NCBI RefSeq assembly: GCF_033096445.1
Contig: NZ_AP028155.1
Location: forward strand, 3,105,880 to 3,169,879
DNA from: Butyricimonas faecihominis
Lineage (GTDB): Bacteria > Bacteroidota > Bacteroidia > Bacteroidales > Marinifilaceae
Length of the DNA stretch: 64,000 nucleotides
Direction: 5' to 3'
Under the pieces are notes generated by a model. It ran no database searches and was not told the origin of the DNA. It worked only from the letters and a program-made list of their open reading frames with translations. Below, one piece after another: positions 1 through 64,000 of this stretch; the stretch's first letter is position 1, and each line of letters begins with the position of its first letter. The translations under genes were made by a program, and so were the position numbers.

Positions 1-1659
1 TAAATAATTCTTCATTTCAGAACTTATCCCAGAAAATTGAGGATTATACAACATCCAAAATTCAGGAGAGGTTCTCTGTTCGTCATTTAACGAGGCAAAT
101 AACTCTACGGCAACAAGGGCCATCTTAGAACTATTAGCCACCTTACTCAATGCCGTTAAATATTGGACCATAAACTCCGGAGAGCGATCTCCACTAACGT
201 ACCTAGCCTCAAGAACACCAAAAGCTTTATTATCATCGAAAGTCTCCTGTACGCGTTCGATAAAATTACCATTCATGACATTAGATATCATGTGTCGAAC
301 ATTCCCTTCCTTATCAAGCACAAGCATTACATTAGGAATATTTATACCGTATCTTCTGATAACCTTGGCCCCTTCTCCTTCCTCAAGATTCACCCTGTAA
401 TTTATAAAAAATTTATTCAGTAAATCCTCTACTTCTTTCTGCGTAAAGAGTTGATCATCAATCGCCTTTGTGGTCTGCCCATTGTTGTGACAATCCAAAA
501 ATACATACTTGTCTTCCACTTCAGCTTGTGCCAGAACCTCTCTTAATGTCTTCAAATTCTCCCAATATACCCCATCATTGCCCGCACGTCTAAAGTTAAA
601 AGCTATTTTAGTAACCTTGCTTTTAGCGACCTCGTCTCTGATCAATTCTTTTTCACGAATAGCGATCTCTCCCAGTCTCTTCAGTTGTGCTTTATCTTTG
701 AACATCGAAATAAACAGATTTGCACCTTCAAATACCCAACTTTTTTCGGAATCATTCAATACATCCAAATTTGTATCAAGAGCATCCATAAAGCCGGTTG
801 CATCATATTTTCCCCGGGCTTCCGCCAAGTCTATCATTTTAAAAAGTGCATCCTTACGAGGTACGTCGTTATTCTCAAGTAAATCTCGAATACCCGGAAT
901 CTTATCATATTTCTTTGCGGGCAATTGGTACACGATCATCAAGTTTAATTCCGACATAAAAGAATTATAAATCAAATCTCCGACCTCTTCTTTTCCTATC
1001 TCCTTTTCAAAATGCCCCCGGTTGGCACAAACAAATTTCAGTTCCTCACTCTCCAAAGAGGTCGCTCTTGATTGTAACAAAGGCCAATAAGCGGCACTCA
1101 ATTTATCTTTCTCCGTAAGCTTTCCCCAAAGATTATCACCTACACTTTGAGCCTTGACAACATCACCTGAAACAGAAAGTAATTTCCAGTACGCCATTTG
1201 TTCTGTCAAATCCAGTTTCCCGGCTTGGTATAATGCCTCGTATTCAGCAAGACTACTGGCTTTTAAGCCGATCTCTACACTCTCTATTAACTTTTCAAGA
1301 GGCATCGCTCCAACCACTTTATGCATTAACTTACCATTCGCATTGATAATCAAAAAGGTCGGATACGCATCAACACCGTATTGCTTACCAATAGCCGGTC
1401 CGCCTCCTTTTTCCATGTCCGTTTTCACACAGACAAAGTTCTTATTAAAATAATCACCGGCCTCTTTCAGCGTGAAGACCTCATTTGCCATCATTTTACA
1501 CGGGCCACACCAAGAGGTATAACAATCCAAGAATATAGGTTTATTTTCCGTTTTTGCCTTCTTGCAAGCTTCCTCTAAAGACAACTCTTGAAAATCTGTT
1601 TGAGCAAAAACAGCGACGGAGCATAATAGTCCCACAAACACCGATAATAATTTTTTCAT
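1..1659 (-). CDS. Thioredoxin-family exported protein with two thioredoxin-like domains (3' end outside window)
   Basis: The frame is open from the ATG at 1659 to the left edge (553 codons, no stop), so the C-terminus is missing. Residues 1-20 form a type I signal peptide ending in VFAQ, so the product should be periplasmic. The first thioredoxin fold carries the redox motif WCGPC (C51, C54) and a YPTFLI cis-proline segment. After a helical stretch a second thioredoxin-like region begins near residue 380, but the motif position reads GQTT (394-397), with no cysteines. It follows the next thioredoxin gene by 24 bp and is the last visible gene of locus A. Role inferred: reduction or handling of disulfides in substrates entering through the locus A SusCD pair. 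Confidence 0.85.
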   Translation of the reverse strand, partial: MKKLLSVFVGLLCSVAVFAQTDFQELSLEEACKKAKTENKPIFLDCYTSWCGPCKMMANEVFTLKEAGDYFNKNFVCVKTDMEKGGGPAIGKQYGVDAYPTFLIINANGKLMHKVVGAMPLEKLIESVEIGLKASSLAEYEALYQAGKLDLTEQMAYWKLLSVSGDVVKAQSVGDNLWGKLTEKDKLSAAYWPLLQSRATSLESEELKFVCANRGHFEKEIGKEEVGDLIYNSFMSELNLMIVYQLPAKKYDKIPGIRDLLENNDVPRKDALFKMIDLAEARGKYDATGFMDALDTNLDVLNDSEKSWVFEGANLFISMFKDKAQLKRLGEIAIREKELIRDEVAKSKVTKIAFNFRRAGNDGVYWENLKTLREVLAQAEVEDKYVFLDCHNNGQTTKAIDDQLFTQKEVEDLLNKFFINYRVNLEEGEGAKVIRRYGINIPNVMLVLDKEGNVRHMISNVMNGNFIERVQETFDDNKAFGVLEARYVSGDRSPEFMVQYLTALSKVANSSKMALVAVELFASLNDEQRTSPEFWMLYNPQFSGISSEMKNYL

Positions 1660-1683
1660 TTCCTTCTTTTTATAAAATTAATC

Positions 1684-2784
1684 TTACTTGTTTTTCTTCG
1701 TCCCAGAAAGCATATTTCCCAAGCCTATCTTCAAAGGATTATGCTCGGTATGTTCATACACGTACTCGTGAAGTTTACATACCCGTTTATACTGCGCCTC
1801 CGTCCCAACATTGGCAATGTAAATTGTCACGGGAAAATAAAAATACACCAGATGTTCCCCGTCAATCTTGGGAAATTCATTCTCGCATAATTCCAGTAAT
1901 TTCTCCACCCCTTTTTCGCTATTATCCTTTCTGGCCTCACACAAAGCTTTCCCCAAAGCGACATACGTATCCATACGCTCCCGTGAGTTAAAATGATGCG
2001 GGGCCATCTGTTTGGCAACCTTATCCAAATCATCCATAGGCTCACGTCCACGGATCATGTCACGTAGTTTAATCTCGAAGGCTTCAGCGATCCGGTTCAA
2101 CACTTTTTCTTCTCCCATGCTCCGGGTAAATTGTTCAAAATGGGAAAACAAGAAATCCATGAAAGGAGAACCCACCGGAGATAAAGCCTGATCTTTAAAA
2201 ATAAACCAATACTCCCGATTTGATTTTTCTGTATCAGGCAATACCTTAAATAATGCCACACACACCTCTTGAGCTTTCTCGTTCATGGAGGCCGTTAACA
2301 ACGCTTTTAAATAATCGGTAAGGAACGAAACGTCTCTATTCCCGTTCTCGTATTGCTGTCCCAAACTGGCAAGCGAAGCTTTCAGCGCCGCCTCGACTTG
2401 GTTCATGAAATCCGATGGTTCAAGGGTTGCCCCAACAATCTGGTTTTCCAATCCCTTATCCACGTTCAAGATCAAAAACGTGGGATAGGCCTGAACATTA
2501 AACATCTTCGCCAATTCCGAACCATCCTTATCAGCTCCCGTGTCATATTTCACACACACGAAACGCTCGTTCATAAACGCTCCTAACTTTACATCTGGGA
2601 ACACCTTGTCCGCCATCATCTTACACGGGGCACACCAAGAGGTGTAAAGATCCACGAAAATCAGCTTTTTCTCCGCTCTTGCTTTCGTACAAGCCTCATC
2701 TAATGTCAATTTCTGGAAATTTGTCTGTCCGAAAGCCAGCACAGAACAAAAAATCCCGACATAAATCAATAACAATTTTTTCAT
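1684..2784 (-). CDS. Periplasmic thioredoxin-family protein (locus A)
   Basis: 366 residues from the ATG at 2784; the longer frame to 2832 adds 16 residues ahead of a clear signal peptide (MKKLLLIYVG..., cleavage near AFGQ), so the inner start is preferred. The thioredoxin fold is N-terminal, with WCAPC (C51, C54) and a YPTFLI segment. The remaining roughly 240 residues look helical and have no recognised domain. The N-terminal half closely resembles the neighbouring gene at 1-1659, pointing to tandem duplication. A 290 bp gap carrying palindromic repeats separates it from the upstream lipoprotein gene. Probable role: periplasmic thiol-disulfide reductase serving the SusCD system. The substrate is unknown. 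Confidence 0.88.
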   Translation of the reverse strand: MKKLLLIYVGIFCSVLAFGQTNFQKLTLDEACTKARAEKKLIFVDLYTSWCAPCKMMADKVFPDVKLGAFMNERFVCVKYDTGADKDGSELAKMFNVQAYPTFLILNVDKGLENQIVGATLEPSDFMNQVEAALKASLASLGQQYENGNRDVSFLTDYLKALLTASMNEKAQEVCVALFKVLPDTEKSNREYWFIFKDQALSPVGSPFMDFLFSHFEQFTRSMGEEKVLNRIAEAFEIKLRDMIRGREPMDDLDKVAKQMAPHHFNSRERMDTYVALGKALCEARKDNSEKGVEKLLELCENEFPKIDGEHLVYFYFPVTIYIANVGTEAQYKRVCKLHEYVYEHTEHNPLKIGLGNMLSGTKKNK

Positions 2785-2878
2785 TTCAGTTCTTTCTAAA
2801 TGATACAATACAAAACATCCTTTTCCTGCCAATAAGGCGCTACACTTTTTCCATGAGGTTGTATAAAAAGCCTTTTTT

Positions 2879-3076: not shown

Positions 3077-3973
3077 CTATATAGAGACCCCGATATCCCG
3101 CAATACCGTTTTCATAATTTCATATTTCGTCATCACGACACTAAACGTCCCGTACAACGCTTCAAATTCTTCCGGCGTGTAAATAAACATCGCCTTGATA
3201 TACATACCTACATCTTGAACCTCCGTGGGCATACTACCATAATCACTAGGATTCGGATCCTTCAAGAAGCCAACGGCTCTCGGGTCAGAGAATCCATACC
3301 TATTGTAAAAATACCAACCGGCACAACCGTATAAATTCTCCGTGTAACAACTGCGGGTTGCCTGATAAAATGCAGCCAACTCTTCCGTATAACCGGAAAC
3401 AGGCGTGGCAAGAACGGCATTAAAAATGGCACCCTTCATATTCAGACGTTCCGCATCGCTCATATCTTTTAACTCTGAAACACGGGAAATAAGCACCGTA
3501 TTCAATCCTTTAAAAGCCTCATTACTTACCACCGCCGGGTTCCAAGGAGTCAAAGATTTCAGCAACAAGAAACTAGTAATCTTGATACTCTCAGGTAAAA
3601 CAGGCACTATCTCCTCGCGTAAGAATTCTAACCCATCGACAACGTCCTCTTTCGGACACAACTCGTAAGAACTGAAAGGATTGGGTGTTTCTGTTCCACC
3701 GAGAGAAGAACTTCCAAATTGCAGGATTTCATAATGTGTATAAGAATTCCCCCAATGATCAAAACGAGTTTCTTCTCCAATCGTATCATTATAAAACACG
3801 GGAATACCTGTCTCCGTGTAAAATTGATAAATCGCATGATCTACCGGATCATTTGAATCCTCTATCGTGAACCAATCTCGACCAACATTGGACGGTGTCA
3901 AATGATCTTCCTTATCACAAGCCGTGAACAAGACGGATAAAAATAATATATAAAGGAAATTATTCTTTTTCAT
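3077..3973 (-). CDS. SusCD-associated lipoprotein, metallohydrolase-like with degenerate active site
   Basis: Start taken at the ATG at 3973; the two extra codons upstream begin with TTG. A lipobox FTAC (C19) indicates a lipoprotein. The layout (a Y-TETGIPVFY strand early, a long middle, and a C-terminal TPEEFEALYG...MTKYEIMK region) resembles the SusCD-linked family of zinc metallohydrolase lipoproteins (LP_HExxH type). Where that family has HExxH this protein reads FNAVL (184-188), so I expect no metal catalysis. The start is 2 bp after the SusD stop, so the two are probably coupled. Possible role: surface substrate-binding partner of SusD. Family assignment is by pattern only. Confidence 0.6.
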   Translation of the reverse strand: MKKNNFLYILFLSVLFTACDKEDHLTPSNVGRDWFTIEDSNDPVDHAIYQFYTETGIPVFYNDTIGEETRFDHWGNSYTHYEILQFGSSSLGGTETPNPFSSYELCPKEDVVDGLEFLREEIVPVLPESIKITSFLLLKSLTPWNPAVVSNEAFKGLNTVLISRVSELKDMSDAERLNMKGAIFNAVLATPVSGYTEELAAFYQATRSCYTENLYGCAGWYFYNRYGFSDPRAVGFLKDPNPSDYGSMPTEVQDVGMYIKAMFIYTPEEFEALYGTFSVVMTKYEIMKTVLRDIGVSI

Positions 3974-3975
3974 AC

Positions 3976-5559
3976 TCAATTTCTTATAAGTTCTCTATTC
4001 GGACGAATCTCATTTTGAAGTTCTCCCCTGTTAAATTCAATTGCATAATTTGGAATTGGCACTATCCAAGCGGCATGATCCTGAGTGTAAGCATTTAATT
4101 CATAGTAACCGTTTTCATACCAAGTCATTGAATTCGCCTCGTAATCATTATTCTGATGACGAATACGGAAATTCTCCGGAAGAGGACGAATGCTATTTAC
4201 AGCATAACGGCGCAGGTCAAACCAACGATGTCCCTCGAAACAAAGTTCACGACGGCGTTCATCACGAATAAAATCAATCAATGCCTCCCCCGTTTCTGTC
4301 ACCGACGGTGCAACAGCAAATCGTTTAGAAAGAAGTTTTTCCAACTCGGTTTTCGCTTCCCCTTCCCGATTTAACATCGCCAACGCCTCCGCCTTATTTA
4401 AAATCACCTCAGGCAAACGAATCAGAAAATCCATACCGACCTCATCCGTATCACTGTAGTCTACCCAAGTCTTATATTTATCGGGTATCGCTGCATGTAA
4501 AGAACTCTTAAAGAATGCTGTTCTACGCAAATCCCCTGCAGCATAACATTCCAACAAATCTTCTGACGCTTGAAATGAAAATGCTTGATTAACCGGGGTA
4601 GAACCACTCCAACCTGATGTATAACTCAAGAAAGTCAGGATCATTGAATTTCCTCCTTGAGTGAAAATTGTTTCGGGTGATGTCCAAGAGACCACATTTT
4701 GCCCGCTTGTCCAATTATTCAAATCCATCACCGAATAAGCTCCGCCCATAGCCTCATTGGCTGCCGCAATACAAGCCTCGTAGTTTTCCATGTACAAGTA
4801 AACTCTAGACAGTAATGCATTAGCGGCAGTTTCTCCTACTCGCAATGTTGAAGAAGGAGTGATCCCTTTCAAACAAACGGCAGCCCGTTGAAGATCCTCG
4901 ATAATCAGCGAATATACCGCCTCTACCGAGCTACGGCTAAAATATTTATCTTCCACATGCTCGGAAGTTTTCAAAGGGACTCCGGCATCTTTTGATGCCG
5001 TGGCCTTGCAATAAGGCATGCCATAAATATTCACCAACAAAAAGTAGTAACCGGCCCGGAGAAAACGCGCTTCCCCTTCCACCCTGTTCAATAGCTCAAT
5101 ATCCTCCTCTTTCGAACGGAAGTCATTTGCCATATAAATGATTGAGTTCAACACACCTATATTTTTGTAAAATTTTTCCCAATCATTATCCTTGTACTGA
5201 GTGTTCTCTAATGTCAGAAACGGGTCGGCTCCCCAATGATAAAAAGAACCCAACACGTTACGCGGATAACTATCCGTGTAAGGTAATCCCCCGGATACAA
5301 ATTCTTCCGCATCATCATCCATGACATGTAGCCAAGGATAATTCATCGTAAGCCCGCTACTGTAACTCATCGTCTCCTGGCTACTTACATAATAACTACT
5401 CTGAAATGCCATAAAACACTCCCCTCTAAGTAACTCGTCCAAATCCTGTGCAGTCTCGGCGTAACGTTGATTCTGCGAATACTCATCCAAAAAATCACCG
5501 CAAGAAACACAACCAAGGGTGAATACACTTAAAATATAGATTAAAACTCTTTTTTTCAT
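3976..5559 (-). CDS. SusD/RagB-family nutrient-binding outer-membrane lipoprotein (locus A)
   Basis: 527 residues. The lipobox is LGCVSC (C20), followed by the GDFLDEYS start typical of SusD proteins. Characteristic SusD sequence is present: RAGYYFLLVNIYG in the tetratricopeptide-like first half, and the C-terminal ERRRELCFEGHRWFDLRRY block. SusD proteins sit on the cell surface as the lid over the SusC channel and bind the substrate. It begins 10 bp after the SusC stop and ends 2 bp before the next lipoprotein start, so this is a tight operon. The ligand cannot be read from the sequence. Confidence 0.95.
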   Translation of the reverse strand: MKKRVLIYILSVFTLGCVSCGDFLDEYSQNQRYAETAQDLDELLRGECFMAFQSSYYVSSQETMSYSSGLTMNYPWLHVMDDDAEEFVSGGLPYTDSYPRNVLGSFYHWGADPFLTLENTQYKDNDWEKFYKNIGVLNSIIYMANDFRSKEEDIELLNRVEGEARFLRAGYYFLLVNIYGMPYCKATASKDAGVPLKTSEHVEDKYFSRSSVEAVYSLIIEDLQRAAVCLKGITPSSTLRVGETAANALLSRVYLYMENYEACIAAANEAMGGAYSVMDLNNWTSGQNVVSWTSPETIFTQGGNSMILTFLSYTSGWSGSTPVNQAFSFQASEDLLECYAAGDLRRTAFFKSSLHAAIPDKYKTWVDYSDTDEVGMDFLIRLPEVILNKAEALAMLNREGEAKTELEKLLSKRFAVAPSVTETGEALIDFIRDERRRELCFEGHRWFDLRRYAVNSIRPLPENFRIRHQNNDYEANSMTWYENGYYELNAYTQDHAAWIVPIPNYAIEFNRGELQNEIRPNRELIRN

Positions 5560-5569
5560 CGCTCAAATT

Positions 5570-8500
5570 TTAGAAAGTGATACTAAGATTACATGAGTAA
5601 GTAGGACGCACCGAAAGATTGACATTCGGTGACGATCCTGACTGAGTAGGATCTTGTCCCCGTAACTTTTTATGGGCAATGGTAAACAGGTTCGTTCCGG
5701 TCAGGTTGATATAAGCCGACTTGAGACCTAACTTCTTACAGAATCGCTCATCAACATTGTAGCGGAAAGAGAGGGAAGACAACCGCAGATAATTTCCACT
5801 CACCACCCGAATATCCGAATTGTCATACATCTCGTAAATATTATTCGCGATTCGATGTGTCATATTCGTTCCACTAGTCCACCACGGGTTGGAGTGAGTT
5901 CCTGCAACGGTATTCAACCCGGGAATATTGGTATGTTCCTCATCACCCGGCTTTCTCCAACGATTCACAAATTCCCGTCGCAAGTTACTATGCGGGTTAG
6001 GATTGGTTGTTCCGTATTCAGTACACAATTTCAGTAACCGGATTTTATTCCCCAAACTATAAGTCAAATTAAACGATAAACTAAAATTACGATACCCTAA
6101 ATAGTTCGAAATTCCTCCTTGAAGATAAGGTTCACGCCGTCCCGATCTTTCCATCACTTCTAGAAAGACATCTTCTCGTTCCATTCCGTTGTATTTTTTA
6201 GACAACTCCTCTTGCAATTCATCCTCTGCTCCGTAAAAAATGGGGGAACCGTCCACAGAGCTTAATCCTTTAAAACGGTATGAATAGAACGTATTCAAAG
6301 GTTCCCCAGCAATCTCCACGTCCCCAGTCAACATATCGTCATACTCAATCTCATCCCGCAAGACATTATTCCGGTTATTTATCGCACTGTTCACCAATTC
6401 GTTCAACACTTGTCCCAACTGGGGATCAATTCGCCAAACAAATCCTCTCTTTCCTCCATCAAGACCGACACGGTTGATCGGGGTGAAATTTAAACTCACC
6501 TCAATACCTTTGTTTACAAGCGTTCCGCTATTCACCACATATTGTTTGATACCGTTAATTTCAGAAATAGTCTTTGTCAGAAATGCATCCCGAGTCTTTT
6601 TATAATACCAAGAAAACGAGCCGTTAATCTTATTCTTTAAAAACGAGAAATCCAAGGTCACATTCGTGGATGCCGTCTTTTCCCACCTTAAGTCCGGATT
6701 CGGGTAATGAGCAACTTTCGAATTAAATTCACCATATTTCCCAGTGTAATCAACTCCTTGCGTGATAATCATATTAGGAGTCTGGTTGCTCAGCATATTC
6801 CCCTGATAACCAAAAGATCCCCTTAATGCCAAATCATCCACCCAATCAACAGATTCCAAAATATCCCGTTTTACATTCCAACGACCGGACAAAGCCCAAA
6901 TCGGCATCATTCGATCATTCGCCCGTGATCCGAATAAGTTGGAAGCCTCCCCTCGAATATGCAGATTCAACATATAACGATTGTCATAATCGTACCCGGC
7001 CATCGCGTACCATGCCACCGAATTGGTTAAATTTTCCGTAATAACACCTAAAGCATTTGGGGAAATCATAAATTGACTATGATATTTCGTGTAAGTCGTG
7101 GGAATAGAAGAAAACAATTTACCCCGATCTCGATGATACCCCCGTCGTGTAATATTAAAACCATCGTATCTTTGAGAATTCAATTCTAACCCGGCAGAAC
7201 CACTCACATTATGCTTACCTTCTCTTCCCACATCCTTGGCGTAATTCGCTTGCACACGTGCCATCCAATTAGTATTGCGAACTTCACTCTTCCGTAATTC
7301 TCCACCAATGGGACACATATCATTCTGCACCGTCTGTTCGGCACGCAACTGATGCACGTAATAGGAGTCTTCCGTAAAATAAATCTCTTGATTTGTGTTA
7401 CTTACCCCGTAAGACAAAGTTCCTTCCAATTTCAAATCATCTATGACATTGTAACTAACATGCGCCTGCATATTAATTGCGTTTCCGTTGGTTTCATCCC
7501 CGGAATTATCCATTTCGTTCAACACGTTGAAAGCATACATCGGCATCGAACCACTTGATGCTCGTTGATAGAGGTAACGAAATCCATCGGGATTAAAAGC
7601 CGGAATGGCACGGTTCATATTATAGGCGTAGTCCAACACACCTAATTCCGAGGGATTGTAATCACGCTTCGATACATTCCCTTGAAGCTGGAACCGTGCG
7701 GCAAAACGCTCGTAATTCGCTGATAAATTTAATGTTGTCGAATATCGTCTATTGCTCTCACCCTTTATCGCACCTTTCTCATCGCTCATTCCGAGAGAGG
7801 CATAATAACGGATATTGGCCGAACCTCCCGACAAGCTCAACGTGTGGTTATGTGAAAACACATCCTGACAAACGACATCAAACCAGTCCGTGTTCAATGT
7901 TTCGTAATATCCAACCAAACGATTGAACTCTTTATAATCGATTGCCCCATTGTAATAATCCTGTATCGCGGCCTCGTATCCGGTCCAACTATCAACATTA
8001 TTGTAATAAACTCCCCGTTCTACCAACTCCCGCGAAACATCCACCCGCTCTTTCGAATTCATCAAGTAAATAGCCCGGTCGCTGTAACGAGGTCTTCTCG
8101 TATAGGAAGCTGTTCCAGAATAAGTAACACTAGGCGGACCGGCTTTCCCTTTTTTCGTCGTGATCACGATAACGCCATTACCCGCTTTTGCCCCGTAAAG
8201 AGCTGTTGCAGAAGCATCTTTCAACACGTCAATCTGTTCGATGTCATCCGGGTTCAAACCCGAAATCGCATTACCCAGCAAGTTCACGAAGTCCAAATCG
8301 TTAATCTGAGCAGGATCAACATTCACCGGATCGGTCAAAACCACCCCATCTAACACCCATAGCGGTTCTCGACTACCCAAAACGGTCGAAGTTCCTCGTA
8401 TTCTTAATTTCGGAGCGGCACCAACCTGTCCGGAATTCTGCATAAAAATCATACCGGGTATACGTCCTTCCAACATTTGGTCAATCGTGTTTACTCCCGA

Positions 8501-9217
8501 CACTTTTATATCGTCCATTCTAATCGTTTGCACGGCACTTGTCAATTTCCGTTTATCAATATTCTGATACCCGGTTCTCACAACCACTTCTTCCAGTTGT
8601 TCTGCAGACTCTTTCAGAACCACGTGAAGCGAATCCTGTCCCGTATATTGCACCTCTTGCGTTTCCATTCCTATAAATGAGAAAAGTAACGACACATTCT
8701 GCATCTTAGGCAGTGTCAACGAAAACCTTCCCTTTACATCTGTTGACGTACCCAAGGTTAAGCCTTTCACGATAACCGTTACCCCGGGCAGAGGATGTTT
8801 CTTCTCATCCGTCACGCTCCCAACAATGCGAACCTCTTTTTCCCCCTCTTTCACCTCTCCCGGAACAATAATAATAACTCCTTGTTCTATCCGATAAGAT
8901 AAATTCACCTTGCCCAAAACCGCATCCAACACCCGTTCCAAATCTTCATCAACAAATTTCGCGGACACGTCTTTCACTTTTTTCAATTCATTGTGATTGA
9001 AAAAAAACTTGTAACCCGTTTGTTGTCTCAATTCCTGAATAATCTCCAACATACTCACTCGCTCCAGATCTAAATTTATCTTCTTTTGGGAGAATCCATT
9101 CCCGGAAACCTTCAACAATAGAAACAGCGTAAAAACACATATTAATCTCATAACCAGAAACCATTTTTTTACACACGCCTCCCTAACAGGGATGCCATCA
9201 TCTCGTTTTTTTTTCAT
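5570..9217 (-). CDS. SusC/RagA-family TonB-dependent outer-membrane transporter with STN signalling domain (locus A)
   Basis: 1215 residues from the ATG at 9217. In order: a signal peptide/anchor (about 20-43, ending NGFSQ), a secretin/TonB N-terminal (STN) domain (about 47-115), a carboxypeptidase-regulatory-like domain (about 130-205), a TonB-plug domain with EEVVVRTGYQ and the signature LKDASATALYG, and a long beta barrel ending in an aromatic residue. The STN domain is what lets such receptors signal to a FecR anti-sigma factor, and a FecR/sigma pair lies just upstream. With SusD it should import an oligomeric substrate, powered by TonB. An 83 bp gap with a hairpin separates it from FecR. 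Confidence 0.96.
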   Translation of the reverse strand: MKKKRDDGIPVREACVKKWFLVMRLICVFTLFLLLKVSGNGFSQKKINLDLERVSMLEIIQELRQQTGYKFFFNHNELKKVKDVSAKFVDEDLERVLDAVLGKVNLSYRIEQGVIIIVPGEVKEGEKEVRIVGSVTDEKKHPLPGVTVIVKGLTLGTSTDVKGRFSLTLPKMQNVSLLFSFIGMETQEVQYTGQDSLHVVLKESAEQLEEVVVRTGYQNIDKRKLTSAVQTIRMDDIKVSGVNTIDQMLEGRIPGMIFMQNSGQVGAAPKLRIRGTSTVLGSREPLWVLDGVVLTDPVNVDPAQINDLDFVNLLGNAISGLNPDDIEQIDVLKDASATALYGAKAGNGVIVITTKKGKAGPPSVTYSGTASYTRRPRYSDRAIYLMNSKERVDVSRELVERGVYYNNVDSWTGYEAAIQDYYNGAIDYKEFNRLVGYYETLNTDWFDVVCQDVFSHNHTLSLSGGSANIRYYASLGMSDEKGAIKGESNRRYSTTLNLSANYERFAARFQLQGNVSKRDYNPSELGVLDYAYNMNRAIPAFNPDGFRYLYQRASSGSMPMYAFNVLNEMDNSGDETNGNAINMQAHVSYNVIDDLKLEGTLSYGVSNTNQEIYFTEDSYYVHQLRAEQTVQNDMCPIGGELRKSEVRNTNWMARVQANYAKDVGREGKHNVSGSAGLELNSQRYDGFNITRRGYHRDRGKLFSSIPTTYTKYHSQFMISPNALGVITENLTNSVAWYAMAGYDYDNRYMLNLHIRGEASNLFGSRANDRMMPIWALSGRWNVKRDILESVDWVDDLALRGSFGYQGNMLSNQTPNMIITQGVDYTGKYGEFNSKVAHYPNPDLRWEKTASTNVTLDFSFLKNKINGSFSWYYKKTRDAFLTKTISEINGIKQYVVNSGTLVNKGIEVSLNFTPINRVGLDGGKRGFVWRIDPQLGQVLNELVNSAINNRNNVLRDEIEYDDMLTGDVEIAGEPLNTFYSYRFKGLSSVDGSPIFYGAEDELQEELSKKYNGMEREDVFLEVMERSGRREPYLQGGISNYLGYRNFSLSFNLTYSLGNKIRLLKLCTEYGTTNPNPHSNLRREFVNRWRKPGDEEHTNIPGLNTVAGTHSNPWWTSGTNMTHRIANNIYEMYDNSDIRVVSGNYLRLSSLSFRYNVDERFCKKLGLKSAYINLTGTNLFTIAHKKLRGQDPTQSGSSPNVNLSVRPTYSCNLSITF

Positions 9218-10526: not shown

Positions 10527-11093
10527 TTAGAAACCTTGTTGTAAGTATTCAACGAGTAGGAAAATGGGAACCAACCTCTCACGCAACATACGATACGCTC
10601 GCTGTACCTGAGTTTTCACTGTTGTCTCGGCAATATTTAATTGTTCGGCAATCTCTTTGTTCTTCTTTCCTTCCACCACTTTTAATAAAATAATCTCCCG
10701 ACACTTATCGGGTAACGCATCCAAAGCTTCTTGAAGGCGTCGATGCACATCCTCGTCTATAACCATATCCTCGGTTCCGGAGAAAAGCTGTGCCTCAAAC
10801 AATTTATTGTTATGCTCATCCCTGATCTTCCGATCCCGTATCGCATTTAAACAACGATTCCGCACCGAGGTGAACAAGTAAGCTTTCACGGAAGTAGCCA
10901 CTTGTAATGTCCCGGCATGATTCCATAAATGGAAGAATAGGTCCTGCACTAAATCCCTTGCCTCTTCTTCATCATATAAATAACTCTCTGCAAACAGGAC
11001 CATTTTGGCAAAATAATACTCATAGAGGTATCGAAACGCCTCTTTATCGCGCTTTTTTATACGAGCTAAAATCAAATCCTCTTCTGCATCCAT
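10527..11093 (-). CDS. ECF RNA polymerase sigma factor, second of two in tandem (locus A)
   Basis: 188 residues. Sigma-70 region 2 is recognisable by DEEEARDLVQDLFFHLW (about 40-56). Region 4 is the helix-turn-helix IAEQLNIAETTVKTQVQRAYRMLRE near residues 145-172. The start at 11093 is an ATG. It lies 58 bp after another ECF sigma gene and 83 bp before the only FecR gene of the locus. By position this is the one expected to pair with FecR and transcribe SusCD. Confidence 0.93.
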   Translation of the reverse strand: MDAEEDLILARIKKRDKEAFRYLYEYYFAKMVLFAESYLYDEEEARDLVQDLFFHLWNHAGTLQVATSVKAYLFTSVRNRCLNAIRDRKIRDEHNNKLFEAQLFSGTEDMVIDEDVHRRLQEALDALPDKCREIILLKVVEGKKNKEIAEQLNIAETTVKTQVQRAYRMLRERLVPIFLLVEYLQQGF

Positions 11094-17240: not shown

Positions 17241-17302
17241 CCCTGTAGAAATTTTAATAAAACGGTTCCCGCACGCACCAAAGGGAACCGCCTCCATTAT
17301 GA

Positions 17303-18877: not shown

Positions 18878-18896
18878 ACCTTTCACTTTTATCATT

Positions 18897-57337: not shown

Positions 57338-58036
57338 TTACCACCCGTAAATATCCTTCTCAGTGAAAGGAAAACTCAAAGAGAATCCATTGTGAAAATG
57401 TTCCAATATCTCTTCTCTCGTCAACGCTTTAGGATAGTGAATCGGCGGCATCCCTTTTTGTCCCAATTTATTGCCTATATATTTCAATATCTCGTATTCT
57501 TCTATTGTTGTGGAAGTTGCCTCCATAAGCCTCGAAACGAGCAACCCATTTGAAACCGGATTAAAACCCAACTTACGCCCCACGGTCACATTACCTTCAT
57601 GTGAAAAAACTGCAATCTTTGTCTTATTCCTCGCAATAGAATCAATTCGCAGAATATATTCCGAATAAGCCCAAAGAAATTCTCCTTTCCGATTCTTAAA
57701 CACGTAAGAACGAAGGGGGAATGACACGGGGTACAACGTATCTTGATGATTTAAGAAACGACAAGACTTACTCTCCCCCAGAGAATCCAGAACGTCACGA
57801 CAGGGTAATAACACTAAAGATTTTAAACCCTCCCTATACTTCTTCCGCACATCCGGCGGAAGTTGAAATCCGTGTAAAGCAAAACACGAATCCAACACCC
57901 TCCGTACTTCCATTTCTGGAAAATCATAAACATAAGACGTGGGATTTAACATTTCTCCCTCTTGGCGTACATCTTCATAATAACAAGCACAGGAAATAAA
58001 AAGCAGAGAATAAAAAAATAAAATCGCTTTTCTCAT
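57338..58036 (-). CDS. Unrecognised lipoprotein (locus D end)
   Basis: 232 residues with lipobox FISC (C16). The mature part has a helical stretch (VRRVLDSCFALHGFQLPPDVRKK), then mixed strand and helix sequence, with cysteines at LLPCRDVL and SKSCRFLN. No domain I can name. It is the last gene of the locus D run, 3 bp after the duplicated-domain gene, so it shares the transcript. It ends 3 bp from the terminator shared with RNase R. Confidence 0.7.
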   Translation of the reverse strand: MRKAILFFYSLLFISCACYYEDVRQEGEMLNPTSYVYDFPEMEVRRVLDSCFALHGFQLPPDVRKKYREGLKSLVLLPCRDVLDSLGESKSCRFLNHQDTLYPVSFPLRSYVFKNRKGEFLWAYSEYILRIDSIARNKTKIAVFSHEGNVTVGRKLGFNPVSNGLLVSRLMEATSTTIEEYEILKYIGNKLGQKGMPPIHYPKALTREEILEHFHNGFSLSFPFTEKDIYGW

Positions 58037-58039
58037 GGT

Positions 58040-58786
58040 TCATTCCCCCTCCAAAGGATACCATTCCTCATTACTACAATAATAATCTTTTCTCAATGTA
58101 TAATATCGACCGTTCAGCCGCAAACGCCGAATTACATATTTTCCCGTGGCAAGTCGATCATTCTCCCGCTCCCGCATATCCACGATGTAATCAAAAATGT
58201 TATCGGAAATTCTCAATTCCGGCGCACTAATATCTTTCCATTCATACCGGTTATTTCGGATGTACAAATATCTCTCAACACGCTCTTGAGCTTTTACAAA
58301 AGTGTAGGCATTAGCCGCGGCAACCGTTGGAATATTTAGATTTCCATTTATAAATAAAAAAGTCGAATCCTGATATTTCCCTCCCACGGGATAAAGTTGA
58401 GGATTCTTTTTAGGTTGTACAATAAATATTCCCAATTCTAAAAGAATATCATACCTCCCCGTAGCCAACCTTCTATTGTACTTTTCCCACAAGCGGACAA
58501 TATGATTGAATATCTGCTCCGAAACTTTCAGTTCTGATCCACTTTTCACATCCCACACAAAACGAATAGCTTGTCCCTCTATCTGAAATCTCATGTGTTG
58601 TTGCACCCGTCTATAAGCCCGAATATACACTTCCCAATCCCGACCTAATACCTCTGGATCTCTTAGATCTCCCCTCAAATCCAAAAAGATAGAATCCTGA
58701 TAATTCTCCTTAGCAACTTGTCCGTAAAGCTCTAGACCTATAAACGGGAAGATCATTATTAATATTATGCATCGACAATATAACAT
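58040..58786 (-). CDS. Exported protein made of two similar domains (locus D)
   Basis: 248 residues with a signal peptide (cleavage near LYGQ, residue 23). Residues 29-114 and 138-220 are clear internal repeats: both start YQDS-F, both have EL-(V/I)S--IF--IV, and both end RLATG-Y-I. Each unit has a strand, a long helix and then strands. I do not know the family. It starts 5 bp after the amidohydrolase stop, so it is part of the same operon. An exported binding or inhibitor-like protein is possible, but there is no direct evidence. Confidence 0.7.
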   Translation of the reverse strand: MLYCRCIILIMIFPFIGLELYGQVAKENYQDSIFLDLRGDLRDPEVLGRDWEVYIRAYRRVQQHMRFQIEGQAIRFVWDVKSGSELKVSEQIFNHIVRLWEKYNRRLATGRYDILLELGIFIVQPKKNPQLYPVGGKYQDSTFLFINGNLNIPTVAAANAYTFVKAQERVERYLYIRNNRYEWKDISAPELRISDNIFDYIVDMRERENDRLATGKYVIRRLRLNGRYYTLRKDYYCSNEEWYPLEGE

Positions 58787-58791: not shown

Positions 58792-60039
58792 CTATTCTAT
58801 TACGTTACCGGTTTTGATTATCATCCGAATTTTCCGCAGCTCCTTAATATCATCATACGGGTTACCGGGGAGGACTAACAAATCAGCTTGTTTCCCGACT
58901 TCCACGGAACCCACTTTATCGGCAGCACCCAACACCTCTGCAGCTACTTTTGTCACCGTGAAAATCGCTTCCATGGGGTAAAAACCGCATTTCTCCACGT
59001 ACAAGTCAAGTTCGTCGAAAATAAAAGGGAAGGGACGTTTTAAATCATTGATGTAATCAGTACCCGCACAGATTTTCACACCGATTTGGTTTGCCCTTTT
59101 GACAAAGCGAGCAGCCCAATCCATCTTGTTCTCCATGCACAGGAAAAGAGTGGGATCAAAAATAAGCCCTTTTGATTTCACGGTTTGTAGAAACCGTTCT
59201 ACCGATATTTTATCATGATCAATCTTGTCGTAGAATTTCTCGTAATTCTCAAAGATATTCCCGCTCAACTCTTCCGAAACCCCTTCCCACTCCAACATAT
59301 AAGCATGAGAGATCACCTGCACCCCGGCATCCGCCACATCCCACGGTTTAGCGGGGAAAAGCGTGGCATGTCCCCATACCTGTAACCCGTGTTCCTTGGC
59401 TTTCCGGACAATCGGTAACAATGTTTCCCTATCAAACCCGCCATAAATTTTCACTCCCGTGCATCCCCATTCTTTCGCGTCCTCCATCGCCTTATCCAAA
59501 TCGGAATCCGGACGGATACACTGCATCCAAGGAGCGTAAGGTTCGGGCCAGCCTTCCACCATACTTTTCTCGCGGTCGTTTCCCTCAAAATAAGCCGGTC
59601 CGGCCATGAAGGCCGCGTAATAGATGTCCGGTCCCAAGTATTTCCCCTGTTGTACTCCCTCCTTCAATTCCCGCAACACACGGGCATCTCCCGCCGCATC
59701 CCGGATAGAGGTTACCCCGTGGCGTAAGAAATACTCCAAATGCTTCGCCCGATCCGCCTGTGATTCCTTCGGGTCATTTGCAATATGCACGTGTGCATCG
59801 ATCAATCCCGGCATCACGTACATTCCCGTCAGATCTTTCACCTCTCCTGAAACGCCAGTCCCGGCACCTTTACCAACCGCTTGAATTATTCCCTCTTTTA
59901 TCACGACATCCTGACCCTTACGGATGCTTCCTTCCACGACATCCACGACATTCACATTCTTCAGGATGATCGCCTTCTCCTGCGCATTTCCATGGAAACA
60001 ACACAGGAGAGATATTATAACACAACCTATTAATCTCAT
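58792..60039 (-). CDS. Exported amidohydrolase (imidazolonepropionase/prolidase-like) (locus D)
   Basis: 415 residues with a signal peptide (cleavage near GNAQ, residue 20). The metal ligands of a binuclear amidohydrolase are all in place: H83 and H85 (DAHVHI), K197 (VKIYGG), H224 (WGHAT), H245 (ISHAYM) and D328 (AGTDY). Many exported proteins of this type act on dipeptides, often with proline, so peptide hydrolysis is a fair guess. It starts inside the TlpA stop (4 bp overlap, ATGA), linking the two. The signal peptide suggests a periplasmic site. Confidence 0.9.
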   Translation of the reverse strand: MRLIGCVIISLLCCFHGNAQEKAIILKNVNVVDVVEGSIRKGQDVVIKEGIIQAVGKGAGTGVSGEVKDLTGMYVMPGLIDAHVHIANDPKESQADRAKHLEYFLRHGVTSIRDAAGDARVLRELKEGVQQGKYLGPDIYYAAFMAGPAYFEGNDREKSMVEGWPEPYAPWMQCIRPDSDLDKAMEDAKEWGCTGVKIYGGFDRETLLPIVRKAKEHGLQVWGHATLFPAKPWDVADAGVQVISHAYMLEWEGVSEELSGNIFENYEKFYDKIDHDKISVERFLQTVKSKGLIFDPTLFLCMENKMDWAARFVKRANQIGVKICAGTDYINDLKRPFPFIFDELDLYVEKCGFYPMEAIFTVTKVAAEVLGAADKVGSVEVGKQADLLVLPGNPYDDIKELRKIRMIIKTGNVIE

Positions 60040-61127
60040 GATCTCTTCTGTCTTATGATTTCATGTATCTCTTCAACCTCCGGATTCTTCAACAAGATAT
60101 TCCCGTCCGGACCTATCAGATAAACCGTGGGAACTTGTTCCACCTTGTAAGCCTTCCGCACTTCACTCTGTTCAAAACCAGTCTCGTCAATCAACTGCAC
60201 CCACGCTACCCGGTCTTCCTTCAATGCCTGTAACCAAGGAGCCTTTTTACTATCTAGAGAAACAGAAATCACTTCTAATCCCGCATCCCGTAATTCCGGA
60301 TATTGTTGGTTCAATTCCTTGTTCTTTTTTCGACAAGGAGCGCACCAAGATGCCCAAAAATCCAAAAGCACGTGTTTCCCCCGGAAATCAGCCAATCGAA
60401 TTTTCTGCCCTTTCACGTCCGGTAGTTCAAAATCCGGAGCCTGCCCGGTCAATTGTTTTGCTTTCAACTTATTGTAAGTATCAAAAATCCTCGTCTTCAT
60501 CCCGCTATTCGGAATGCTATCTCCCAATGCTTCGATTGCTTGGGTAAAGAATTTAAAATCGACCTCACAATAAAAAAGGATTTCGTGTATCAGGTTTTGT
60601 GCAATTTCCGTTCCGGCAAATTCACGAATACCTTCTAACACAAGTTCATTCTTTCTCGTGAACTTTTGATCCAGCATTTCCGAACGGGCGGCTTTCTGAT
60701 GAATGTCCGTGATGGTATCGTAACCCTGACACGCCTTCTCGTAATCCTGATTCAATTTATCGAGTTCTTTCAGGAATTCCACGTATCGATTTTGCAATGA
60801 CGATTCTTCGGAAAGCAGGTAATACTTATCCCCGGACTCAACAAGCATATAATGCTTTTGCTCGATATATACCGGTATCCGAACATAATCTTTCGGGAAA
60901 TTAACAAACACAAGCTTACCCGGTGCAATATTACCCGAAAGATGAAAAGTCCCGTCTTTCTGAATCGAAGCAACCATCAAGCGTTCTCCTCGTCGGGCAT
61001 CAGGAAGCGTGACTTCCACGCTATCACTTTTCCATTGCTTTTCAACTTCTCCCGCAATCTGGACTGTAGTTTGCTTACAGCCGAACAGAACAAGTAAAAA
61101 TAACCCGACAATAATTATTTTCTTCAT
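60036..61127 (-). CDS. TlpA-family thiol-disulfide oxidoreductase lipoprotein (locus D)
   Basis: 363 residues, lipobox VLFGC (C17). Residues about 22-110 resemble the DUF4369 beta domain that precedes many Bacteroidota TlpA proteins. A helical linker (about 110-225) follows, then the redoxin domain with WCAPC (C262, C265) and VPTVYLIGPDG. It stands between the LRR lipoprotein and the amidohydrolase, the position held by a thioredoxin in loci A to C. Expected to reduce disulfides near the membrane before hydrolysis. Confidence 0.9.
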   Translation of the reverse strand: MKKIIIVGLFLLVLFGCKQTTVQIAGEVEKQWKSDSVEVTLPDARRGERLMVASIQKDGTFHLSGNIAPGKLVFVNFPKDYVRIPVYIEQKHYMLVESGDKYYLLSEESSLQNRYVEFLKELDKLNQDYEKACQGYDTITDIHQKAARSEMLDQKFTRKNELVLEGIREFAGTEIAQNLIHEILFYCEVDFKFFTQAIEALGDSIPNSGMKTRIFDTYNKLKAKQLTGQAPDFELPDVKGQKIRLADFRGKHVLLDFWASWCAPCRKKNKELNQQYPELRDAGLEVISVSLDSKKAPWLQALKEDRVAWVQLIDETGFEQSEVRKAYKVEQVPTVYLIGPDGNILLKNPEVEEIHEIIRQKRS

Positions 61128-61226: not shown

Positions 61227-63296
61227 TTATTTTACATTCGAGAATCCATATCCCTCTTGCTGAGGATAAATATTCGTTTCCGGATATAACTTCTTCCACA
61301 CGGCTGATGATAATACTTCTGCCGGAATTTCTCCTGACATTCTGTTCCCATTCAGCTTCAATCCACTGTAACCCAAGTTCATTTTGGCCACCTCTACAGG
61401 AATTGTTCCGGTAATATTATTATTACTTAAATAGAAATAACTCAAGGTCGAACAATTTCCTAATTCGGCAGGTAATTCACCTGATAACAAGTTGTGTTCC
61501 AAGTACAGGTTCCGAACCTTCGTCAGAGTTGAAATCCCGTTCAAGTTACCTTCTAACTTGTTATTTGAAAGATAGACATCGGTCAAATTCGGACTGAACT
61601 GGCTCAAATCAAGTTGCCCGGATAATTGGTTACCATCCAATCTCAACGTCTGCAATGCCGATAGGTTTTTCAGCCAAGAAAGATCACCCGAGAATGAATT
61701 GTTACTTGCATTCAATTTTTTCAATTTCGTCAAACCAGAGAAGACATCGGCAGCAACTCCACGGATTCCCGGCGTACCCTCTTTCCCGGTAACATCCAAC
61801 TCTTCCAAGGCGGACAAAGAAGAAATCGCAGCGGGTAGTGTCGTTAAACCAGTTCTCGGCATGGTCAATTTCTTCAAACCTGTCAACTGTCCCAAGCTAG
61901 CCGGAAGAGAAGTCAGTGCTGTACATTGACTCACGTCTATTTCCGTTACTTTGGTCAGGTTACCAATGCTCTCGGGTAATGATTCCAAAGCAGCACAATC
62001 GTAAAAATTCAATTTCGTCAGTTTATCCAGTTTACCAAAACTTTCCGGGACGGCTTTCAGTAGCTTACATCCTCTTAAAGTCAAGGTGCTTACTTGTAAA
62101 TTTCCTATATCACTTGACAAACGCTCCAACCTCTCACAATCAGATAAATCTAATGCCGTCAACTGGATCAAGTTTCCAAAACCTTCGGGAAGTTCTTTCA
62201 ACACTTTACAACCGGATAAGGTCAAAGTTTTCAAATTCACTAATTTCCCGATATTCTCACCTAAAGAGGCCAAAGCCTGACATCCACGTAAATTCAATGT
62301 TGTTAAATTCTCCGCCAATTCCCCAATATCATCCGGTAAACTATAAATATTCGTTCCTGCAAGATCTAACGATTTCAAGTGTTTCAACTTGGATATTCCT
62401 TCCGGCAAGTCCCCGATCAGGTATATCGTTGATAACGACAAGGATTCCAGCGCAGGCAAAGTATAGAATGCCGCAAAAGATTCCATCGGGATTTTCAATT
62501 GTCCCGGCTTAAATTCCTTTAATGAAAGCATGGAAGACATATCATTCGGCAAGAACCACTCCGTCCCATCCGAGAAGTTCACATTCAAGGATTCCAACTT
62601 TCTCAAGTTAATCAAGCTATTCGGACATTTGTAAACTTTCCCGGTAATCCGCAGAGAGGTCAATTCCCGTAAATTACCCACTTCATTCGGCAGGTTACCA
62701 GACAAACTGAAGTCAGACAATAGCAATGCTGTCACTCGCAATTCTCCATTTATCTCTTCTAAGGTAACTCCGGACCACTCTGTCATCGGTTTTCTAGGGT
62801 TCCACGGGTTACGCCATCCTTCACCATTAAGTGATTCGTGAAGAACAAGTAATGCCAAACTATCACTTCTGCGAGTATATTTGGATTCATACGTGTACTG
62901 ACCAACGAACACGGTGTCGGTCACGCCGGTATTCTCCTGGCGAACAATCATTCTCGTGTAGCGTTCCTGCATCCCCTCGTTTACCCTCAAAGTAATCCCG
63001 ACAACAGCATTACCCTCGTCCCCGGATTTCGGTTCATAATCAAAAATCCAATTGGTTTCCTCGATCGGCTCAATACTCCACCCGCCACCAATGGAACGCA
63101 ACTCGAATCCCTGGGCATTTCCCATGGCATCGATCATGATCTCTTTCTGTGACAATTTCAAGCCCGGAGTCAGATCTTCTGGAATCACCGGATCAGGAAT
63201 ATCCTTGAAGTCGTAATCCTCGCAAGATGAAAATATCCAAAGCGACACAATGCTATAAAGCACTAGATTTACAATATATCGTTTCATAATCTTCAT
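61227..63296 (-). CDS. Leucine-rich-repeat lipoprotein (locus D)
   Basis: 689 residues from 63296 (an ATG three codons later, at 63287, is also possible). Lipobox FSSC (C25). Residues about 45-135 resemble a BACON-like Ig domain (GGGWSIEPIEETNW, YTRMIVRQENTGVTDTVFVG). A cap region near 145-200 (LVLHESLNGEGW) leads into about 18-20 leucine-rich repeats of 22-24 residues (about 190-670), of plant-type LxxLxLxxNxLxGxIP in the last third. LRR arcs bind protein ligands. It follows the PKD-like gene by 9 bp and was probably acquired as a surface binding part of locus D. Confidence 0.88.
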   Translation of the reverse strand: MKIMKRYIVNLVLYSIVSLWIFSSCEDYDFKDIPDPVIPEDLTPGLKLSQKEIMIDAMGNAQGFELRSIGGGWSIEPIEETNWIFDYEPKSGDEGNAVVGITLRVNEGMQERYTRMIVRQENTGVTDTVFVGQYTYESKYTRRSDSLALLVLHESLNGEGWRNPWNPRKPMTEWSGVTLEEINGELRVTALLLSDFSLSGNLPNEVGNLRELTSLRITGKVYKCPNSLINLRKLESLNVNFSDGTEWFLPNDMSSMLSLKEFKPGQLKIPMESFAAFYTLPALESLSLSTIYLIGDLPEGISKLKHLKSLDLAGTNIYSLPDDIGELAENLTTLNLRGCQALASLGENIGKLVNLKTLTLSGCKVLKELPEGFGNLIQLTALDLSDCERLERLSSDIGNLQVSTLTLRGCKLLKAVPESFGKLDKLTKLNFYDCAALESLPESIGNLTKVTEIDVSQCTALTSLPASLGQLTGLKKLTMPRTGLTTLPAAISSLSALEELDVTGKEGTPGIRGVAADVFSGLTKLKKLNASNNSFSGDLSWLKNLSALQTLRLDGNQLSGQLDLSQFSPNLTDVYLSNNKLEGNLNGISTLTKVRNLYLEHNLLSGELPAELGNCSTLSYFYLSNNNITGTIPVEVAKMNLGYSGLKLNGNRMSGEIPAEVLSSAVWKKLYPETNIYPQQEGYGFSNVK

Positions 63297-63305
63297 TATT
63301 AATTT

Positions 63306-64000
63306 CTATTTAATCTTGTAGAACATACTTACAGGTTCGTAAGAAATTCCCTCGTACTTATTTACCAGTTCACCAGAATCCGCATCATAGATATACAAAG
63401 AACCTTTATATTCACCCTCACGATTCGGATTATAGGTTGAAATGTAGAATTGTTTTTGGCGGGAATAATCTTGATATTCAGCATCACTGACACTACGAGA
63501 ACATTGATAATGATTCAGGCAACGAACCTCTTCACCCTCGGGTAATGTTATGAAAGGAGTTGCATCTATATCCAACTGCGAGTAAAACCATTTATAGACT
63601 TTATTACCATTAGAAACAAAAACACAAGAGTAGTAATCATTGGGTAATAATTGAGATGATTCCGTAACGATTCCTTCTCTAACAGAACGTTCAAAGAGAA
63701 CCCAAAGTCCACCGCCACCGGCAAAATTATACATCATCCCTTTTATTCCAGTAATCTTTGTCTGTCCACCATCACGACTAATAACATATACATCATCATC
63801 CAAATTCTGGAATAATTTAATCACCTTTCTATTTTTAAAATAATCAAAACAATTCTGATAAGAGAAGAAAGGATCGTACCCGTTAGCTCCACTCCAACAA
63901 ACTGCATCCCGATCTTTGCTAATGAATACCCTTGTCATACTACTTGTGTAACTCGGACGATCGTAAGCATCCGTGTACACAGTTTCTTGCGGAAGACCAG
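63306..64000 (-). CDS. PKD-like family lipoprotein, C-terminal part (locus D; 5' end outside window)
   Basis: The frame is open to the right edge; about 231 codons are visible and the start lies beyond it. The sequence resembles the C-terminal part of the locus B PKD-like protein: repeated strand units such as DDVYVISRDGGQT, NGNKVYKWFYSQLD and GSLYIYDADSGELVNKYEG, and an ending FYKIK. This suggests a propeller-like surface domain. It is immediately followed by the LRR lipoprotein, so both probably sit after an unseen SusCD pair. Confidence 0.6.
   Translation of the reverse strand, partial: GLPQETVYTDAYDRPSYTSSMTRVFISKDRDAVCWSGANGYDPFFSYQNCFDYFKNRKVIKLFQNLDDDVYVISRDGGQTKITGIKGMMYNFAGGGGLWVLFERSVREGIVTESSQLLPNDYYSCVFVSNGNKVYKWFYSQLDIDATPFITLPEGEEVRCLNHYQCSRSVSDAEYQDYSRQKQFYISTYNPNREGEYKGSLYIYDADSGELVNKYEGISYEPVSMFYKIK

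Follow-up and report, generated by a model that had tools for sequence, protein, structure and literature searches.

We analysed a 64,000-nucleotide stretch of the genome of Butyricimonas faecihominis (bases 3105880-3169879 of a single-contig genome of 4.85 Mb, referred to here as the window), which carries operons that combine a SusC/SusD pair (SusCD) with genes for thioredoxin-fold proteins. SusCD pairs have mostly been studied as glycan importers. Three of the operons, loci A (1684-11093), B (12534-26451) and C (32438-45062), all lie on the minus strand and comprise genes for an extracytoplasmic function (ECF) sigma factor, FecR, SusC, SusD, lipoproteins and a Thioredoxin_7 protein that bears, in each locus, a signal peptide and a WCxPC motif. 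Families were assigned by a Pfam scan of 48 open reading frames (ORFs) of the window at E ≤ 0.001; signal peptides, and the lipobox of one locus B protein, were judged by eye. Locus C, the main subject here, holds the following genes.

44463..45062, minus strand: ECF sigma factor (Pfam)
43275..44432, minus strand: FecR anti-sigma factor (Pfam)
39641..43204, minus strand: SusC (Pfam; TIGR04056, 758 bits)
38037..39629, minus strand: SusD (Pfam)
37426..38055, minus strand: lipoprotein lipoC1, predicted FAS1 (fasciclin) fold (AlphaFold2, Foldseek; no Pfam match)
36631..37416, minus strand: small lipoprotein lipoC2 (alignment with relatives)
35224..36504, minus strand: secreted thioredoxin, WCEPC, with all-helical C-terminal domain (PF13899, 55.6 bits; AlphaFold2; alignment of 20)
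32438..35227, minus strand: two-half M16 peptidase with signal peptide, HVLEH (Pfam M16; PDB profile search)

The AlphaFold2 model of the locus C thioredoxin (pLDDT 91.3) predicts a thioredoxin fold at residues ~20-135, followed by an all-helical domain of ~290 residues that reaches to residue 425. The best PDB match is 2kuc of Bacteroides thetaiotaomicron (E 4.7e-37), and the match to NCBIfam DsbD is weak and under the cut-off. The protein resembles DsbD-gamma, TlpA, the Thioredoxin_7 periplasmic reductases and 2kuc in having a thioredoxin domain with CxxC, and it differs from them in its helical domain and in its position behind SusCD. Both the WCxPCK motif and the cis-proline are invariant in an alignment of 20 thioredoxins, consisting of the window protein and 19 of the 22 relatives described below. 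Foldseek retrieved thioredoxin domains such as 2kuc and DsbD-gamma; matches that extend over the helical domain, to YbbN and to a designed TPR superhelix, were weak, so that TPR-like can only be suggested as a label for this domain. Of the two lipoproteins, lipoC1 was modelled with a pLDDT of 87.8 and matched the FAS1 pair of 1o70 (E 1.5e-6), and lipoC2 has a long coiled-coil insert found in just two of the 13 relatives aligned with it (L122, L123).

The thioredoxin and M16 genes overlap by 4 bp (35224-35227). A profile built from ten M16 sequences matched PDB entry 9ldy ('Peptidase, M16 family') with an E value of 5e-186, followed by PqqL (4e-99) and by three entries named 'Putative zinc protease' (6b03, 6brs and 6b05; 1e-81 to 1e-82), which we take to be FusC. 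These matches are nearly full-length; the next one, to another M16 protein, has an E value of 8e-27, and pitrilysin one of 3e-14. Judged by this profile, the locus C peptidase is closest to E. coli PqqL among the named structures. Of the four loci, only C has a secreted M16 peptidase of the PqqL/FusC type beside its transporter gene. Directly upstream of the sigma factor gene lies a gene whose 858-residue product carries a Schlafen AlbA_2 domain at its C-terminal end (45104-47680).

Locus-C-type operons in other genomes

An alignment of five thioredoxins of the locus C type served as query against named bacterial genomes, and the best 80 of at least 443 candidates were considered. The closest named relatives among these belong to Butyricimonas, with 72-75% identity. 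At least 22 relatives match the locus C thioredoxin over nearly its full length. In each of these 22 loci a SusC gene lies upstream in the same orientation; SusD was called in 21, and usually both lipoproteins, of the lipoC1 and lipoC2 type, are encoded as well. The hosts are Butyricimonas, Sanguibacteroides, Porphyromonas, Prevotella, Hoylesella, Joostella and Galbibacter (Flavobacteriaceae), Echinicola and unclassified Bacteroidia, some genomes contributing several loci (Butyricimonas sp. Marseille-P3923 four, B. synergistica two). The order SusC, SusD, FAS1 lipoprotein, small lipoprotein, thioredoxin is found again in Bacteroidales (Prevotellaceae and Porphyromonas among them), in Flavobacteriaceae and in Echinicola. 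The module seen at locus C is genuine and occurs in several families of the phylum. The other 58 of the best 80 loci match by the thioredoxin domain, and eight of them hold an ORF with a SusC profile match, including two Chitinophaga loci with the order sigma-FecR-SusC-SusD-thioredoxin.

Although the 22 loci were picked by their thioredoxin and not by the peptidase, 13 contain an M16 gene, which directly follows the thioredoxin gene in 11; in the other two, both from Porphyromonas, it is found upstream of SusC, with its start cut by the end of the locus. The distance between thioredoxin and M16 genes ranges from −4 to +113 bp in the ten cases computed, and L120 and L122 show the 4-bp overlap. 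All 11 M16 genes that follow a thioredoxin gene encode an intact HxxEH. The reverse look covered 20 M16 loci, with short flanks, from 39 genomes of the family. In all seven loci of 46% identity or more, one of which is that of the window, a thioredoxin gene lies directly upstream, as against one of 13 at 30-33%. By sequence and gene order, thioredoxin and M16 peptidase are a conserved pair in several families at locus C.

Of the 41 rows in a SusD tree, the 28 that are of locus-C type and carry a thioredoxin all fall into one supported group of 30 (96/99), the remaining two members of which lack it. The presence of M16 requires at least seven changes on the same tree, so that the peptidase comes and goes; the thioredoxin looks old in this lineage and M16 looks like a recurrent partner. 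The Butyricimonas genome under study has 17 locus-C-type operons, seven of them with a thioredoxin and two of these seven also with M16.

Thioredoxin genes behind SusC and the other loci of the window

Across the whole genome, the SusC/RagA signature TIGR04057 gave 113 matches over its cut-off. Profile PF13905 matched 89 times and PF13899 48 times, and merging of matches at most 1.2 kb apart on one strand left 109 thioredoxin-fold genes. For 75 of them, a SusC gene on the same strand lies no more than 10 kb upstream, compared with a mean of 12.7 (standard deviation 7.1) in circular shifts, one of 2000 of which reaches 75; 36 of the 109 lie upstream of SusC on the same strand and nine near SusC on the other strand. 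For Thioredoxin_7 alone, 33 of 42 are downstream of SusC versus 4.9 by circular shifts. The position of Thioredoxin_7 genes relative to SusC was examined in one further genome, which belongs to another genus of the family (G007, the studied genome being G000). Here 19 of 21 lie within 10 kb downstream of SusC, where ~9% would be expected by area, and one of the two exceptions resembles a DsbD-type long frame. The preliminary description of the window had proposed enrichment of thioredoxin genes beside SusC as a check on its reading, and both genomes show this enrichment.

The DNA around all SusC genes, parsed with simple ORF, gap and profile rules, yielded 115 SusC operons, two of which are lone SusC-like ORFs. 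A thioredoxin-fold gene is present in 62 (42 of these end in one) and lacking in 53. Different families, Thioredoxin_7, TlpA and doubles, fill the same place in the operon, and the active-site CxxC is kept in 82 of 88 thioredoxin-fold proteins. DsbD is encoded elsewhere in the genome (675 residues, L200:975-3002; DsbD_N, DsbD_TM and Thioredoxin_7). Within the family, six genomes of the genus have 31-59 Thioredoxin_7 matches each, a second genus has 28, and two further ones have 3 and 1. In a sample of 119 genomes of the order, those outside the family have 0-10. The outside group includes 23 Bacteroidales genomes, compared by counts, that have at least 20 SusC matches each (scored up to a ceiling of 60) and only 2-9 Thioredoxin_7 matches; the expansion is therefore not simply tied to SusC number. 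The coupling of SusCD and thioredoxin is real, large and family-specific. Cysteine-rich SusC or SusD proteins were considered as a reason for the thioredoxins and found no support, with 9.19 cysteines per 1000 residues in SusD from operons with a thioredoxin against 10.15 without, and 2.46 against 1.99 in SusC.

The other passengers of the operons were labelled by Pfam through representatives and BLAST clusters, with 25 of 52 matching families displayed in one such scan, and the counts of peptidases and glycoside hydrolases are for that reason lower bounds. At least 20 of the 115 operons encode a peptidase: Met-zincins (DUF4953), S9, S8 together with aspartyl proteases, M13, TldD-like, trypsin-like and M16 enzymes, and the locus D amidohydrolase. 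Glycoside hydrolases occur in at least four (two fucosidase-cluster proteins, one GH2 and one MGH1-like/trehalase match). Three recurrent arrangements were seen besides. Ten DUF4953 Met-zincin peptidases occupy, in eight operons, the same downstream place as the thioredoxins (for example L012:5722-8256), and one of the eight has a thioredoxin. A GldG-like pair, made up of an ABC ATPase of ~310 residues and a 770-residue ABC-2 permease with ABC_transp_aux, closes several SusCD operons (for example L019:7124-9433, L077); at least part of it is found in seven operons, one of them with a thioredoxin. Finally, the near-duplicate SusCD operons at 1611719 and 2547212 (L040, L064) carry a subtilase and two aspartyl proteases between their TlpA and Thioredoxin_7 genes.

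The genes of loci A and B are listed below; their SusC proteins are the two, out of three in the window, in which an STN domain scores above or near the cut-off.

Locus A
10527..11093, minus strand: ECF sigma factor (Pfam Sigma70_r2/r4_2)
9301..10443, minus strand: FecR anti-sigma factor (Pfam FecR, FecR_C)
5570..9217, minus strand: SusC with STN domain (Pfam Plug, CarbopepD_reg_2, STN; TIGR04057 match)
3976..5559, minus strand: SusD (Pfam SusD_RagB, SusD-like_3)
3077..3979, minus strand: lipoprotein of group lipoA, 4-bp overlap with SusD (no Pfam match)
1684..2832, minus strand: secreted Thioredoxin_7 protein, WCAPC (PF13899, 45.8 bits)
1..1659, minus strand: second Thioredoxin_7 protein, 693 residues, extending past the left edge (L078:3026-5107; PF13899, 59.3 bits)

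Locus B
25834..26451, minus strand: ECF sigma factor (Pfam)
24594..25763, minus strand: FecR anti-sigma factor (Pfam)
21139..24525, minus strand: SusC with STN domain (Pfam; TIGR04057)
19731..21122, minus strand: SusD (Pfam)
18897..19718, minus strand: DUF4843 lipoprotein (Pfam PF16132)
17303..18952, minus strand: PKD_2 lipoprotein (Pfam PF16407)
16152..17297, minus strand: secreted Thioredoxin_7 protein, WCMPC (PF13899, 46.1 bits)
15202..16119, minus strand: protein with lipobox (no Pfam match)
14552..15178, minus strand: small protein (no Pfam match)
12534..14351, minus strand: protein with two TlpA-type thioredoxin domains, WCYPC and WCGPC (two stretches each of AhpC-TSA and PF13905)

The lipoA group comprises 25 proteins in SusC operons genome-wide. 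An extra ECF sigma factor gene without a FecR gene of its own (11152-11730) lies directly upstream of the locus A sigma gene. The window contains the downstream part of a fourth operon, locus D.

Locus D
63306..64000, minus strand: end of a PKD_2-like lipoprotein that straddles the window edge (L081:5583-7079), with DUF4843, SusD, SusC, FecR and sigma beyond the edge
61227..63296, minus strand: leucine-rich-repeat lipoprotein (Pfam LRR families)
60036..61127, minus strand: TlpA-type thioredoxin lipoprotein, WCAPC (AhpC-TSA, PF13905)
58792..60039, minus strand: secreted amidohydrolase, prolidase-like by sequence (PF01979; XaaProDiPepCaul; PDB 2p9b)
58040..58786, minus strand: secreted protein (no Pfam match)
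57338..58036, minus strand: lipoprotein (no Pfam match)

The preliminary description had counted four SusCD loci of the order sigma, FecR, SusC, SusD, lipoproteins, thioredoxin, each ending in a thioredoxin or a hydrolase. Three of them, A to C, have this order inside the window; the SusD, SusC, FecR and sigma genes of locus D are located past the right edge, beyond base 64000 (L009, L081). As to the ends, locus C does finish with its M16 gene, and elsewhere the description needs amending, since a second thioredoxin gene follows in A, three more genes in B and two more ORFs in D. The thioredoxin-hydrolase overlap of 4 bp that it gave for loci C and D is real in both, that of D falling at 60036-60039, and its statement that glycoside hydrolases are absent agrees with the lack of any match among the 48 window ORFs. 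Pfam likewise found no glycoside hydrolase family in loci A-D including the part beyond the edge; other classes of carbohydrate-active enzymes were judged from the same scans.

The locus D amidohydrolase scored 111 bits against XaaProDiPepCaul, far under the 500-bit cut-off, and matched PDB entry 2p9b, a 'possible prolidase'. Close relatives (at least 83% identity) were found in four of the 39 family genomes, its own included, each with the leucine-rich-repeat and TlpA genes upstream. The nearest structures are a possible prolidase, an Xaa-Pro dipeptidase and an arginine carboxypeptidase, and since other amidohydrolases are also among them, cleavage of dipeptides by this enzyme would be a guess. 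Outside these operons the window holds a Dps/ferritin-like gene (29093-29569), a gene for a 681-residue TlpA-type protein with no SusC gene beside it (48386-50431) and an IS3-like transposase pair (helper ORF and rve integrase, 53264-54522) between an AraC-type regulator and RNase R.

Proposed polypeptide import and competing explanations

Fus of Pectobacterium and PqqL/YddB of E. coli are described as protease-associated import systems (PMC6071955, PMC6793856). TonB-dependent import followed by periplasmic M16 action has been proposed for Fus, and a ratchet model has been described for ferredoxin (Grinter et al. 2018). Fus-like clusters occur in Proteobacteria, and in some of them FusC is replaced by a different protease or by a redox enzyme (Grinter et al. 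2019). As in Fus and PqqL/YddB, locus C clusters a TonB-dependent transporter gene with a secreted two-half M16 protease, and the redox enzymes noted beside FusA-type transporters (Grinter et al.) are a further likeness. The transporter of locus C, however, is a SusC with the SusC/RagA signature, a SusD lid and extra lipoproteins rather than a member of the FusA/YddB family; the thioredoxin precedes the protease, ECF sigma and FecR genes provide control, and the operon has no FusB-like TonB gene. RagAB of Porphyromonas gingivalis shows that a SusCD-type pair can import peptides (PMC11817032). Locus C shares this kind of pair, whereas neither a thioredoxin nor an M16 peptidase is described with RagAB in the accessible portion of that source, from whose main text the words 'thioredoxin' and 'disulfide' are absent. 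Polysaccharide utilisation loci have SusC, SusD, surface lipoproteins, sigma and FecR in common with loci A-D, which differ from them by their thioredoxins and by the lack of a glycoside hydrolase match. By title and abstract opening, no literature description of SusCD loci with thioredoxins was found; most subscription papers were beyond reach of the search, and the absence is unproven. For SusC together with PqqL, the literature gave nothing beyond one mention of SusC in a figure legend.

Among the functions considered for these loci, import of peptides or proteins has the best support. For locus C we tentatively propose, at a probability of roughly 0.4, a SusCD module that takes up polypeptides after capture at the surface and then reduces and cuts them in a dedicated periplasmic stage. 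The proposal starts from what was computed, namely the gene order, the signal peptides, the conserved CxxC, the M16 subfamily and active-site motif, the recurrence across families, the genome-wide enrichment and the presence of DsbD. SusD, the FAS1-fold lipoC1 and lipoC2 would bind a polypeptide at the surface, and SusC would take it inward by TonB-powered transport. The secreted thioredoxin, presumably rereduced by DsbD, may then open disulfides of the substrate while its helical domain might hold the unfolded chain, and the PqqL-like peptidase would cut the chain in the periplasm. Reduction of disulfides in the imported substrate is plausible, and the place of the thioredoxin between importer and protease fits disulfide-locked substrates. 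Loci A, B and D and some 60 more may share capture, import and reduction, with cutting left mostly to peptidases encoded elsewhere.

Several observations weigh against this proposal. No M16 gene was found in the fetched DNA of nine of the 22 locus-C-type loci, and the seven or more changes on the SusD tree belong here too. Ten of the 17 locus-C-type operons of the Butyricimonas genome lack a thioredoxin (one has M16 only, nine have neither), and of its seven locus-C-type thioredoxins two divergent ones have lost CxxC (L032:5153-6424, L090:6021-7301), as have six of the 88 operon proteins overall, these two among them. Peptidases are no commoner in operons with a thioredoxin (8 of 62) than in the others (12 of 53; Fisher p = 0.22), and any placement of two unplaced Peptidase_Mx1 proteins leaves p between 0.095 and 0.48. 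A general coupling of thioredoxin and peptidase was accordingly rejected; Met-zincins run the opposite way (1 of 62 against 7 of 53, p = 0.023), as does the ABC-2 module (p = 0.047), each being one of three tests without correction. The sequence of capture, import, reduction and cleavage, which the preliminary description had inferred, is thus not a general rule.

The thioredoxins could instead be disulfide isomerases or redox chaperones that serve folding and export of the SusC, SusD and lipoproteins of their own locus, encoded in the same operon for stoichiometry. Cysteines in the surface proteins lend this some weight, with Cys422 of SusD kept in 28 of 28 thioredoxin-bearing locus-C-type loci versus 5 of 10 without, and the single conserved mature cysteine of lipoC1 in 26 of 27 versus 8 of 10; moreover, YbbN of E. 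coli is the top Foldseek match for thioredoxin plus helical domain, albeit with a poor fit (TM 0.22, root-mean-square deviation 22.6). Yet the locus-C-type surface proteins contain no conserved cysteine pair: the conserved cysteines of lipoC1 and SusD are lone ones (two columns in SusD, one of them uneven), and SusC has no cysteine column kept in half of the rows. The similar cysteine content of SusC and SusD with and without a thioredoxin argues that the thioredoxin does not serve only the proteins of its own locus, 53 of the 115 operons manage without one, and the M16 partner would be left unexplained. We regard this explanation as unlikely.

Another reading is the scavenging of a metal or cofactor borne by a protein, in the manner of ferredoxin piracy, in which thioredoxin reduction and M16 cleavage would free the metal or cluster. 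The likeness of the peptidase to PqqL speaks for it, and according to Grinter et al. (2019) PqqL expression is iron-dependent and a redox enzyme with FusA may reduce the imported protein; the Dps/ferritin-like gene of the window would also suit. That gene lies outside the four operons, however, no iron-transport genes were seen in the loci, and some 60 thioredoxin-bearing SusCD operons are many for one nutrient. We hold this route to be quite unlikely. Still less probable is a passenger expansion, in which SusC operons multiplied in the family and carried thioredoxins along without any substrate-related task. High Thioredoxin_7 counts in only two of the sampled family genera, and the loss of CxxC in some copies, would be expected from it, whereas retention of the active site in most copies, the gene order kept in Prevotellaceae, Porphyromonas, Flavobacteriaceae and Echinicola, and the arrival of several thioredoxin families at the same place would not. 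Uptake of glycans or glycopeptides with hydrolases encoded elsewhere is highly improbable, for although SusCD pairs classically import glycans, the FAS1 and PKD-like lipoproteins might be glycan binders and a few operons do encode a glycoside hydrolase, loci A-D have no such match and peptidases are found instead in at least 20 of the 115 operons.

Polypeptide import with reduction and cleavage remains our preferred reading of locus C. A wider version, which we hold to be rather doubtful, is that Bacteroidota own a protein-import machine built on SusCD independently of Fus, with a range that extends from Bacteroidales of gut and mouth to Flavobacteriaceae of the sea. It would use FAS1/SusD capture, TonB-driven passage, a helical-domain thioredoxin that breaks disulfides and perhaps pulls the chain inward, and a PqqL-like protease; its reductive half would have been copied into some 60 SusCD operons in Butyricimonas-like bacteria, with disulfide-rich peptides or proteins as a main diet. 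More than half of the SusC operons of this genome carry a thioredoxin and few a glycoside hydrolase, which points to a diet different from glycans. The conserved order of SusCD, FAS1 lipoprotein, thioredoxin and M16 makes import of disulfide-bonded polypeptides by Bacteroidota testable, with the biochemistry of PqqL and FusC as a template, and provides a named, testable gene set for this family of gut bacteria.

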